The notes below the pieces were generated by a model. It was not told where the DNA came from, ran no database searches, and was given only the letters and a program-made list of their open reading frames with translations. A stretch of 33,066 nt of DNA from an uncultured Clostridia bacterium (GTDB lineage: Bacteria; Bacillota; Clostridia; Oscillospirales; Acutalibacteraceae). The translations under genes were made by a program, and so were the position numbers. Numbering within the stretch: position 1 is the stretch's first letter; each line of letters begins with the position of its first letter. The stretch is taken from contig CANRMW010000005.1 in NCBI GenBank assembly GCA_947631835.1, forward strand, positions 1-33,066, written 5' to 3'. Positions 3,019 to 15,799 of the stretch are shown one piece after another.

Positions 3019-3756
3019 TTAAACGTCTTGCAGGATGCCCGAAAGCTCCGCAAAGGACGCCGTGCGAAACTCTGCAAGGTCCGCGTTCCGCTCGTTGATG
3101 AGGCAGTCCGTCACGAGGAGCGTTTCCATCCCCGCTTTTCCCGCGGCGACGGCGTCCTCGTCCACGTTGTTGCCGACCATCAGGCAGTCCTTCGGGTCCG
3201 CGTCGAGCCGCTTTGCGATCGCCGTGAAATACGCCGGGTTCGGCTTCGAGCAGGACATATTCTCATACGTCGTGACGAGCGCGAAATCCGAGGCTTTCAG
3301 CCCGATCCACCCGAGGCGCGTCTCCACGCCGATCTTCGGAAAAATGGGGTTCGTCGCGAGCACGACGGTATGTCCCGCCGCTTTCAGCCCGTCGATCAGC
3401 GGCTTTGCGAGCGGGTTTTCCCCGGTAAAGCGCTTTGCGCCCGCAAACTCGTGCGCGTAGAAATCGTCGGTGACGCTGCGGTGCTCCGGGACGTACTGCG
3501 GGAACAGCCCGGCGAACGTCTCCCAGAACGCCTCGCAGTTCGGCCGGGAGCCGTCGTTTTTCACCATCGCCGCCGTGCCGGCCCAAACGCCCGCGATGAG
3601 CGCCTTCGCGTCGGTGTAGCCGAGCGGCGCGAGCTTCGCCGCGAGGAGCCCGAAATACCCGCGCGTAAATTCGTCGTTGTCCATCGGCAGCAGCGTGCCG
3701 TCGAGATCGAACAAAATCAGCTTTTTTCTCAATTTCTCATCCCTCGATCGGAACAA
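3019..3756 (-). CDS. HAD family hydrolase
   Basis: LILFDLDGTLLPMDN (motif I), VLATNPIFPK, and KPNPAYFTAIAKRL..DCLMVGNNVDEDAVAAGKAGM (motifs III/IV). Start uncertain (TTG). Confidence 0.9.
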   Translation of the reverse strand: MFRSRDEKLRKKLILFDLDGTLLPMDNDEFTRGYFGLLAAKLAPLGYTDAKALIAGVWAGTAAMVKNDGSRPNCEAFWETFAGLFPQYVPEHRSVTDDFYAHEFAGAKRFTGENPLAKPLIDGLKAAGHTVVLATNPIFPKIGVETRLGWIGLKASDFALVTTYENMSCSKPNPAYFTAIAKRLDADPKDCLMVGNNVDEDAVAAGKAGMETLLVTDCLINERNADLAEFRTASFAELSGILQDV

Positions 3757-3795
3757 GAGGGCCAGTTCCCCGACTCCCTCTTTTGTAACCGTCCT

Positions 3796-4164
3796 TTACC
3801 GTGCTCTCTGCAGGCTCGCGCTCGCCACGACGTCCACGCCCGTCCCACAGACGTTTTCGATCACGACGTCCCCGATCCGCACGGGCGTCTCGATCTCCGC
3901 CGCGTTGATCGCCTCCATGACCGCAAAGATCTTCGACTTCGGAACGTCGGTCTTCGTGCGCACGGCGACCACGGGCCGCTCGCCGCCGATGGCCCGCACC
4001 GTGGAGGTGACGGTCCGCGTCGGCGCGGTGACTTCCTTCTTCGCGTAGATCTCGCCGCGCTTGCAGGTGTTCCCCTCGACCTTCACGACCTCGCCGTTTT
4101 CGAGCGTGACGGTGAGCGGACAGCCCAGCGGGCAGTTGATACAGATGAGGTTTCTCGTTTCCAT
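3796..4164 (-). CDS. DUF1667 domain-containing protein
   Basis: ICINCPLGCPLTVTLENGEVVKVEGNTCKRGEIYAKKEVTAPTRTVTSTV is the DUF1667 Cys-rich signature. It follows two flavoprotein genes, the usual context. Confidence 0.92.
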   Translation of the reverse strand: METRNLICINCPLGCPLTVTLENGEVVKVEGNTCKRGEIYAKKEVTAPTRTVTSTVRAIGGERPVVAVRTKTDVPKSKIFAVMEAINAAEIETPVRIGDVVIENVCGTGVDVVASASLQRAR

Positions 4165-12802: not shown

Positions 12803-13357
12803 TCAGGCCTTCAGCGCCGCGCGCGCCGGCACATACAGCACGCCGACGATCACCATGTTGAGCAGCGCGGTGCAGAGCACGATCGGCACATAAGCGACGA
12901 GCGTCTCCGCCGTCGCGTTCGCGAAGAGGAACAGGCAGACGGTATAGAGCCCGCCGGAAACCACCGTCGCGACGAACGTGGAAACGACGGAGGAGAGGTT
13001 CTTCTGCATCGGGATCTTGATCATCAGCGCCATGACGAGCGCGCCGGCGATCTCGGAGATGAAGTTGAGGTACGGCGTGCCGGGGAAGAACTGGCACACG
13101 GCGCCCGCGAGGATGCCGATGATGAGCGCGCGGAGCAGGTCCGGCTTGATGAGCAGGATCGCGAGGCAGTACATCGCAATGATGAAGTTCGGCTTCATGC
13201 CGCCGATGTTGACAACGCTGCCGACGAAGAACTTGAGCACCGCGCCCGCCGCGAGCAGGACCGCCGTGAGAATGAGGTTGCGGATCTCGACCGCCGCGCG
13301 GCTTTCGGCCTTGACTTCGCGCTTTTGAGCCGTTCTGTTGCTGTTTTCGTTTGCCAT
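12803..13357 (-). CDS. trpP: ECF-type tryptophan transporter substrate-binding (S) component, TrpP-like
   Basis: Small polytopic protein (RNLILTAVLLAAGAVLKFFVGSVVNIGGMKPNFIIAMYCLAILLIKP..FFPGTPYLNFISEIAGALVMA) resembling TrpP. Preceded by a T-box with a probable UGG specifier and followed by EcfA/EcfA/EcfT. Confidence 0.85.
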   Translation of the reverse strand: MANENSNRTAQKREVKAESRAAVEIRNLILTAVLLAAGAVLKFFVGSVVNIGGMKPNFIIAMYCLAILLIKPDLLRALIIGILAGAVCQFFPGTPYLNFISEIAGALVMALMIKIPMQKNLSSVVSTFVATVVSGGLYTVCLFLFANATAETLVAYVPIVLCTALLNMVIVGVLYVPARAALKA

Positions 13358-13471
13358 GATGAAAAACTCCTTTCGCCGGGGAACTGCCTCGGCCTGCAAA
13401 ATAATGGGTTCGGTTGGCCGGGGCGTTCACAATGTCCCTTTGGAAGCGGAAGTGTCCCGGAGAAATAAAAA

Positions 13472-13755
13472 AGCCCTTACATGCGCACACGCGCACATAA
13501 GGACAAGAGAAACTCCTGCGGTACCACCTTACTTGATATGCCGTTTCCGACATACCCGCTCTAACGAAAATGCCAACACATTTCCTGCCTTTAACGCCGG
13601 CACGCGTCTCGGCTACTCGTCGCCTTTCGCCTCGCCCTCCGCGGTCCATTTACCGAGTGGCATCTCCGCAGGACTTTCACCACCGCCTGCTCTCTGTGGG
13701 CGCCTGCCCCGGCTTGATCTCCGCATCATCGGTTTGCTTTGTGAACTTGTAAGAC
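13472..13755 (-). promoter_or_regulatory. T-box leader, probable tryptophan specifier (UGG at 13646-13648, minus strand)
   Basis: Minus-strand RNA contains AGAGAGC...GGUGGUGAAAGUCCUGC (Stem I distal motifs), CGGUAAAUGGACCG (specifier loop, UGG followed by A), and AAGGUGGUACCGC (T-box). It ends in terminator CCTTATGTGCGC-gtgt-GCGCATGTAAGG-GCTTTTTT. Confidence 0.92.
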
Positions 13756-13784
13756 ATTATACGCCGCTCTTTTCCGTTTGTCAA
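13756..13784 (-). promoter_or_regulatory. Consensus sigma-A promoter of the T-box/trpP-ecf operon
   Basis: Minus strand TTGACA-17 nt-TATAAT, exact consensus hexamers and spacing. Confidence 0.9.
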
Positions 13785-13842: not shown

Positions 13843-13871
13843 TGGACTTTGCGGGCGGAGTATGCTATAAT
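13843..13871 (+). promoter_or_regulatory. Sigma-A-like promoter directly upstream of the tandem repeat array
   Basis: TGGACT-17 nt-TATAAT, with TG at the extended -10 (TATGCTATAAT). Confidence 0.7.
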
Positions 13872-13913: not shown

Positions 13914-14704
13914 CGCCGGCTCGCGGGAAACAGAAGCAAATCCACCAAACGAACTCGGTTTCCGGCACGGGGCAAAGCCCGCCGAAAGCACCGGCGAAGT
14001 TCGCGGAGCGAACGACCAACGCGACGAAACAGCCTTCGGCTGCGCGCGGCAGAGCCGCTTTCGTTTGTTCTACGCCGGCTCGCGGGGAACAGAAGCAAAT
14101 CCACCAAACGTAGTCAGTTTATGGCGCGGGACAAAGCCCACCGAAAGCGCCGGCGAAGTTCGCGGAGCAAACGACCGGCGCGACGAAACAGCCTTCGGCT
14201 GCGCGGCGGCAGAGCCGCTTTCGTTTGTTCTACGCCGGCTCGCGGTAAACGGAAGCAAATCCACCAAACGCAGTCCGTTTATGGCACGGGGCAAAGCCCG
14301 CCGAAAGCACCGGCGAAGTTCGCGGAGCGAACGACCGGCGCGACGAAACAGCCTTCGGCTGCGCGGCGGCAGAGCCGCTTTCGTTTGTTCTACGCCGGCT
14401 CGCGGGAAACAGAAGCAAATCCACCAAACGTAGTCAGTTTATGGCGCGGGGCAAAGCCCGCCGAAAGCACCGGAGAAGTTCGCGGAGCGAACGACCAACG
14501 CGACGAATCGGCCTTTGGCCGCGCGCGGGCATAGCCCGCTTCGTTTGCTCTACGCCGGCTCGCGGGAAACAGAAGCAAATCCACCAAACGCAGTCCGTTT
14601 ATGGCGCGGGGCAAAGCCCGCCGAAAGCACCGGCGAAGTTCGCGGAGCGAACGACCGGCGCGACGAAACAGCCTTCGGCTGCGCGACGAATCGGCCTTTG
14701 GCCG
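13914..14704. repeat. Tandem array: five copies of a ~160 bp palindrome-rich unit
   Basis: Unit starts (CGCCGGCTCGCGG) at 13914, 14073, 14233, 14393 and 14553, giving periods of 159, 160, 160 and 160. Shared core: GAAGCAAATCCACCAAACG..GGGGCAAAGCCCGCCGAAAGCACCGGCGAAGTTCGCGGAGCGAACGACC..GCGACGAA. Confidence 0.97.
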
Positions 14705-14722
14705 TGGAAAGGAAGGAGCGGG

Positions 14723-15799
14723 ATGAAAGCCATATTGGAAAAGGGCGCGCGTCTTACGGAACGCGCGTGGAAGCGCCTTGCGGCGGCGGGTCTCGCGCTC
14801 CTGCTCGTCGTGGTCCTCGCCATCGCGCTGTTCCCGCTGCTCGACGGCGGCTCGCCCGCAGAGATCGTCACTTATGCCATGGGCAGCTATGTGCGGCAGA
14901 CGGTCTACGGAAAGAACGGGGAGGAAGCCGCGCGCGAGGCCGCAGGCGCCGTGCAGGCGCTCGACAACGAGATCTCGTGGCGCGCCGTCGGTGGGGACAT
15001 CCAACGGCTGAACGAGCACGCCGGGGACGACTGGATCGAGCTCTCCGAGGAGACGGTCGGCCTCCTCGCCCTCGCGCAGGAGGTCTGCGAAAAGAGCGGC
15101 GGCGCGTTCGACGTCACCGTCGCGCCGCTCACCCACCTCTGGGATTTCGACGACGCGAAAAACGAGGTCCCCTCTGCGGAAAAGATCGCCGACCGGCTGC
15201 AATACGTCGGCGGAAAATTTCTGCGGCTGGACCAAAACGAAAACACCGCCTCCCTTCGAAATACGGGGAACGCCGTGGACCTCGGCGGCCTCGGGAAGGG
15301 CGCCGCCTGCGACGCGGCGTGCGCGGTCTATGAAACGCTCGGCGTGCGCGCGGCGGTGATCGCCGTCGGCGGCAGCATCGGCGTTTACGGCACAAAACCG
15401 GCGGGCGGCCGCTGGAACATCGCCGTGCGCGACCCGAACAGCGACGGCTCCATCGGGACGCTCTCCATTGAGCGCGGGTTCGTCTCCACCTCCGGCAGCT
15501 ACGAAAAATGCTTCGAAAAAGACGGCGTGCTGTACCACCACCTGCTCGACCCGCACACCGGGATGCCCGCGCGCACGGGCCTGCTCTCCGTCACGGTCTG
15601 GAGCGAAAACGGCGCGCTCTCGGATATGCTCTCGACGGCCTGCTTCGTCCTCGGGGAATCGGACGGCGCGGCGCTCCTTGAAACATTTGGCGCGGAGGGC
15701 ATCTTCATCCGCGAGGACGGCGCCGTCGCGGTGACGGACGGCCTTTCGGAGAGCTTCCAGCTCACGGCGGAGGGATACGCCCTCGCCCCGCTCGCATGA
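14723..15799 (+). CDS. apbE: FAD:protein FMN transferase
   Basis: VQALDNEISWRAVGGDIQRLNEHAG, FDVTVAPLTHLWDF, VDLGGLGKGAACD, SGSYEKCFEKDGVLYHHLLDPHTGMPA are ApbE motifs. ATG at 14723 after GGAAGGAG. Confidence 0.93.
   Translation: MKAILEKGARLTERAWKRLAAAGLALLLVVVLAIALFPLLDGGSPAEIVTYAMGSYVRQTVYGKNGEEAAREAAGAVQALDNEISWRAVGGDIQRLNEHAGDDWIELSEETVGLLALAQEVCEKSGGAFDVTVAPLTHLWDFDDAKNEVPSAEKIADRLQYVGGKFLRLDQNENTASLRNTGNAVDLGGLGKGAACDAACAVYETLGVRAAVIAVGGSIGVYGTKPAGGRWNIAVRDPNSDGSIGTLSIERGFVSTSGSYEKCFEKDGVLYHHLLDPHTGMPARTGLLSVTVWSENGALSDMLSTACFVLGESDGAALLETFGAEGIFIREDGAVAVTDGLSESFQLTAEGYALAPLA

Follow-up and report, generated by a model that had tools for sequence, protein, structure and literature searches.

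The tandem array upstream of apbE in the window (the whole stretch of DNA analysed, 33,066 nucleotides from an uncultured Clostridia bacterium) is probably a local and recent expansion, within the apbE leader, of a dispersed mosaic palindromic repeat that is lineage-specific, non-autonomous and similar to BOX elements and BIMEs. Dispersal of the repeat, its occurrence in tandem, its polarity with respect to genes and the variation of its copy number between sister species were all observed. The best reading of the family is that it is a new, lineage-specific and previously unlisted member of the broad kind of dispersed mosaic palindromic repeats; a search of the literature turned up no relevant earlier account of the repeat from these bacteria. 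The family gives the Clostridia a compact and young BOX/BIME-like case, and because sister species share loci at which the unit counts differ, the birth, polarity and amplification of a repeat become directly traceable.

The array and the apbE leader

Tandem Repeats Finder (TRF) detected a tandem array at 13914-14685 with a period of 160, 4.8 copies, 91% matches and a score of 1304. As delimited here (13914-14705) the array consists of four complete units and one truncated unit, all head-to-tail and ~93% identical. The preliminary description had given a ~160 bp unit with five starts, at 13914, 14073, 14233, 14393 and 14553, and both these starts and their spacings of 159/160/160/160 bp proved exact by TRF and by spacing, with the qualification that the fifth unit is incomplete. 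Its sequence breaks off near position 136 of 160, where a second hairpin cassette takes over, followed by the apbE ribosome-binding site. When compared with unit 3, units 1-4 were 88-100% identical over their full length and unit 5 was 97% identical across 136 bp. The features of the array and its surroundings are as follows.

12803-13399, minus strand: neighbouring trpP-like tryptophan transporter gene (Pfam PF17099, E 4e-10)
13496-13738, minus strand: T-box leader preceding the divergent trpP, separate from the repeat (cmscan RF00230, 82.1 bits against a gathering score of 93, E 6.6e-18)
13756-13784, minus strand: T-box/trpP promoter-like site, TTGACA-17-TATAAT (consensus scan, 12/12)
13843-13871, plus strand: apbE promoter-like site, TGGACT-17-TATAAT with TG ahead of the second hexamer (consensus scan; homologous sequence in sister locus L080 at ~1373-1400)
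13914-14072, plus strand: repeat unit 1, 159 bp (TRF, matches to unit 3, spacing)
14046-14058, plus strand: terminator-like hairpin of unit 1, GCGGCAGAGCCGC then TTTCGTTTG (site scan)
14073-14232, plus strand: repeat unit 2, 160 bp (TRF, matches to unit 3, spacing)
14205-14219, plus strand: terminator-like hairpin of unit 2 (site scan)
14233-14392, plus strand: repeat unit 3, 160 bp (TRF, unit alignment, spacing)
14365-14379, plus strand: terminator-like hairpin of unit 3 (site scan)
14393-14552, plus strand: repeat unit 4, 160 bp, with a differing second-hairpin cassette CGGCCTTTGGCCG and end cassette GCGGGCATAGCCCGC (sequence, unit alignment, spacing)
14525-14539, plus strand: terminator-like hairpin of unit 4 (site scan)
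14553-14705, plus strand: repeat unit 5, incomplete, comprising the core with the CAGCCTTCGGCTG and CGGCCTTTGGCCG hairpins, ahead of the apbE ribosome-binding site (sequence, unit alignment, spacing)
14709-14719, plus strand: apbE ribosome-binding site AAGGAAGGAGC (sequence)
14723-15799, plus strand: apbE, FMN transferase family (Pfam PF02424 / PF07009 / PF07456 matches across the apbE gene set)

The gene apbE is the first of a set, apbE / NusG_II / Hpre_diP_synt_I. The array is placed between its promoter-like site and its ribosome-binding site, the latter and the ATG lying directly 3' of the last hairpin, so that the array should be transcribed as an untranslated leader, which from its position would measure ~0.85 kb. 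The claim that the array is noncoding and its ORFs are frame artefacts held, as the only call made inside it by a hexamer-based gene finder was an in-frame N-terminal extension of apbE, the true start of which is the ATG at 14723, downstream of the array. Long ORFs do span the array and would be the basis for reading it as a coding repeat or repeat protein, but that reading can practically be dismissed: the period is no multiple of three, so the units fall in different frames, and the ORFs were rejected by a coding-potential model. The apbE ORF is open upstream to 14441 within the array (14441-14722, plus strand), which was called an artefact, and apbE may be annotated automatically with 94 spurious residues at its N-terminus.

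A tRNA search of the array found none, and against Rfam nothing in the array reached the gathering score, while allowing E up to 10 yielded chance-level matches only; at 15 further family loci only tRNA and 5S were matched. An Rfam RNA family was thereby ruled out for the array, in line with the earlier remark that it was not recognisable as a named family. CRISPR, which had also been discounted, was ruled out in turn since there are no unique spacers and the 160-bp homologous units run continuously. An assembly artefact, raised at the outset as a possible objection, is unlikely because the family occupies many separate contigs as well as an independently assembled sister MAG; the exact copy number of the array, read from a short-read MAG, is not certain.

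In that sister species (G001) apbE is 84% identical and is preceded by a matching TTGGACTTTGCGGG...GCTATAAT promoter, and its leader is ~65 nt long and without the repeat. The left neighbour of apbE differs there, the flank being rearranged, and the leaders cannot be aligned base by base. The insertion junctions are therefore unreadable at the level of single bases, and no clean empty site with a target duplication was demonstrable at apbE in the comparison with G001.

Anatomy and folding of the unit

Units across the family are ~115-160 bp long with several hairpins each, and are mosaics of conserved linker words and interchangeable hairpin cassettes. On the window plus strand the order is CGCTGGCTYGCGG..., CRCCGGCGAAG, inner hairpin, CGACCRRCGCGACG, second cassette, (third cassette), end hairpin and TTTCGTTTGCYCTA. 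That the array is palindrome-rich, as had been reported, was borne out by 16 perfect hairpins (stem of at least 5, loop 3-5) against 4.07 +/- 1.85 (maximum 11) in dinucleotide shuffles; a second count gave 360 hairpins against 101.8 +/- 8.1 in shuffles.

Of the two stems tested only that of the inner hairpin covaries, with 64 double-change cells compared with 24.9 in shuffles, because alternative and mutually unrelated stems (TTCGC/GCGAA, TGCGC/GCGCA, CGGCGG/CCGCCG and CGTGTG/CACACG) replace each other; a frequent variant, TGAGC/GCGAA, makes a poor stem. The outer stem (A1 columns 5-11 with 43-49) pairs on the minus strand in 85% of cells by way of G-U pairs, which are A-C on the opposite strand, and its covariation score of 0.251 was no better than that of shuffles (0.238; 60/500 shuffles). 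Neither strand had an unusual folding energy (mean z -1.05 and -0.88), nor did the strands differ (p = 0.39). A single folded RNA is not supported by these values, and the structured RNA suggested in the preliminary description, taken as one conserved fold, found no support in them either; the unit core is a chain of small hairpins rather than one fold. A structured noncoding RNA or repeated sRNA gene transcribed from the strand opposite the window plus strand would fit the G-U pairing of the outer stem and the covariation of the inner hairpin, but it is improbable given that the outer stem covaries no more than shuffles do, that the folding energy is ordinary on either strand, that the inner hairpin as a perfect palindrome suits both strands and that there is no Rfam match.

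Most clusters end in an AT-rich terminal hairpin module (e.g. AAAAGTTCTTTTGCTTACTTTTCTTTCAAGAAAAGTAAG), the pattern of which was found 93 times near clusters as opposed to 6 times elsewhere (sampled 500 kb). As regards the features of a MITE, terminal inverted repeats and a target site duplication, this module lies at the 3' end of 38/60 clusters and, inverted, at the 5' side of 18/59, where the upstream gene nearly always points at the cluster, and no target duplication could be made out at the apbE site. At L066 8658-8852 there is a short tandem array of hairpin plus AAAAGACTTTT without the 160-bp unit, which may be the terminal module multiplied alone.

Distribution and copy number of the family

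Homology searches recovered both solitary and tandem copies. With one unit as blastn query, the window's own genome (2.05 Mb, 218 contigs) yielded 79 matches and the sister species G001 yielded 39, and the same search of 38 other relatives, 5 of them from the same genus, gave zero. In a 406-kb sample of the own genome, taken mainly around the blastn matches, nhmmer found 97 units with a seed model, and 119 once the model had been iterated. Many units occur as tandem pairs up to sextets, and many sit at contig ends. These matches uphold the earlier proposal that a dispersed repeat has expanded locally to form the array.

A covariance model run with strict filters on 394 genomes of the order found the own genome alone, and a 16-base signature occurred 36 times there, with single hits in two other genomes of the order that are probably due to chance. 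A slightly looser signature was found within the genus 46 times in G000, 57 times in G001 and once in G003. With a 24-base signature eight contigs were retrieved from the GTDB collection, all of them from the MAG 'uncultured Clostridia bacterium Lapin-028__bin84'. The covariance model, pattern and collection searches together covered the order, 85,462 species, viruses, phages and plasmids and revealed no further carrier; there was no match in viral contigs, phages or plasmids, and thus no carriage of that kind was seen. Among the genomes searched the family is confined to two closely related sister species of gut Clostridia.

Shared loci in the two species carry different numbers of units: 1 and 5 at L036/L108, 1 and 4 at L058/L094, 4 and 3 at L033/L105, and 1 and 2 at L060/L098. 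Units were more alike within arrays than between them (identity 0.753 vs 0.648; permutation p ~0.001). The array in the window, with a mean unit-core identity of 0.93, ranks with the most uniform ones, and its expansion therefore looks recent. Under the favoured reading, copies at new sites would have arisen through a trans-acting or recombinational process, and local multiplication would have followed by unequal recombination or replication slippage.

Comparison with known repeat systems

The closest known parallels to the way the repeat works are BOX elements and BIMEs, and for its expansion locus by locus the parallel is STAR elements. The BOX elements of Streptococcus pneumoniae (boxA/boxB/boxC) have defined end modules as well as terminal inverted repeats and target duplications, and a resemblance of their ends to those of an insertion sequence has been pointed out (PMC3049150). 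The present family resembles them in being modular and hairpin-forming, with ~100 elements per genome and a variable number of modules, in occupying untranslated regions (where BOX is expressed) and in being nearly absent beyond a few related species (PMC3049150). Unlike BOX, it is the whole unit that repeats here and neither a mobiliser nor a duplication was found, the two having been compared by description; the unit is also GC-rich in a GC-rich genome, and host group and composition differ. The STAR elements of Staphylococcus are likewise GC-rich, intergenic, lineage-restricted direct repeats that expand and contract at fixed loci (PMC3532100). They have a 14-bp core and spacers of at least 40 bp, and have not been described as a mosaic of swapped hairpins (PMC3532100), whereas the units described here are such mosaics.

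ERIC is an imperfect palindrome of ~127 bp, intergenic and transcribed, usually single and found chiefly in enterobacteria; it is not known to have a transposase. On a comparison by description only, the present repeat is similarly an intergenic palindromic element, but one that is tandem and found in Clostridia.

BIMEs and REPs are, like this family, intergenic palindrome mosaics with interchangeable motifs and are often clustered (PMC2817692, PMC3733652). REPs measure 20-40 bp, with one hairpin, a GTAG/CGTC tag, alternating orientation and often a RAYT (PMC2817692, PMC3733652); the units here are long, contain several hairpins and lie in direct orientation, and no RAYT was found. The short intergenic palindromes in tandem clusters, together with a CGTC that is conserved where the minus-strand core starts, beside the outer stem that lacks covariation, may recall CGTC-tagged REPs. 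A REP/REPIN-type element moved by a RAYT (Y1 transposase) is nevertheless very unlikely, for the unit is 115-160 bp rather than 20-40 bp, and Y1_Tnp (PF01797) was absent from the own genome and from G001, both incomplete MAGs (95.7% and ~82%), while control genomes were positive. Y1 genes of the genus were found in three other species, G002, G003 and G004, all without the repeat. The RAYT/IS200-like partner suggested in the preliminary description was thus not found in either carrier, and the name Clostridia does not occur in a survey of REPs. No mobilising enzyme for the repeat was identified. The own genome's sole RVT_1 match is a reverse-transcriptase-like protein of 447 residues (L148 1186-2526, minus strand), which nothing ties to the repeat.

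Position relative to genes and possible function

Genes were located with a small gene finder for which these contigs served as the training set. The clusters are polar, with a 3' end that usually adjoins a ribosome-binding site, promoter or stop codon, and the gap was smaller on the 3' than on the 5' side in 35/42 (p = 1.5e-5; medians 43 vs 214 bp). The nearest gene was downstream and co-directional in 41/57, with the terminal hairpin just 5' of the Shine-Dalgarno or promoter, and anti-directional in 16/57, where the array starts soon after its stop codon. Several clusters have a TATAAT box 32-49 bp ahead of their first unit, and in these the array takes up the leader. A simple count nevertheless put promoter-like sites ahead of the arrays no higher than the antisense control (8 vs 6), which real promoters of divergent genes possibly raised. 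The genes beside the repeats are of mixed kinds.

Terminator-like sites, each a GC hairpin with a T-rich tract behind it, were enriched on the unit-sense strand (54 vs 16.3 +/- 3.6 expected from shuffles) and showed no enrichment on the opposite strand (31 vs 39.3 expected); this is the sole functional hint with a strand preference. The T-tract is interrupted (TTTCGTTTG; TTTCGTTT), termination at such tracts may be negligible, and the T-rich stretch could pair instead with an upstream CGAAA. Since arrays stand before the starts of genes or are turned towards their ends, the hairpins would stop transcripts bound for the neighbour or attenuate the leader of the gene itself, and weak cis-attenuation or insulation would be the most testable function. 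Each full unit would add to the mRNA strand a GC hairpin and TTTCGTTTG, a weak terminator-like site, and the most likely effect would then be a mild cis-control of the adjacent gene, with unit number tuning read-through. Should these hairpins work, an uncultured gut bacterium would have in unit number a simple and evolvable dial for gene expression. It is unlikely that the repeat goes further and forms a new class of portable leader attenuators countable in tandem, with each unit placing a one-strand terminator-like hairpin between promoter and ribosome-binding site, cassettes being swapped between units and unit number setting the expression of many genes in this lineage. Occlusion or shielding of the Shine-Dalgarno by the array was rejected, as array ends had no average effect on its predicted access over 21 leaders (p = 0.86).

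The repeat may equally be tolerated DNA without a selected role. A selfish or neutral repeat, either MITE-like or a by-product of hairpin recombination, that piles up where it is least harmful and has no regulatory role has a substantial though less than even chance of being the correct account. It would be consistent with the restriction to two species, the mixed neighbouring genes, the drift of copy number at shared loci and the unaffected Shine-Dalgarno access. The strong gene polarity and the enrichment of terminator-like hairpins on one strand would be unexpected of random tolerated insertions, although a polar insertion mechanism could yield the polarity.

A second intergenic multi-copy repeat, of ~370 bp and 80-88% identical between copies, often lies directly upstream of the palindromic units; its sites are L042 ~3700-4060, L055 ~1880-2250, L099 5453-5818 and L108 2905-3253.
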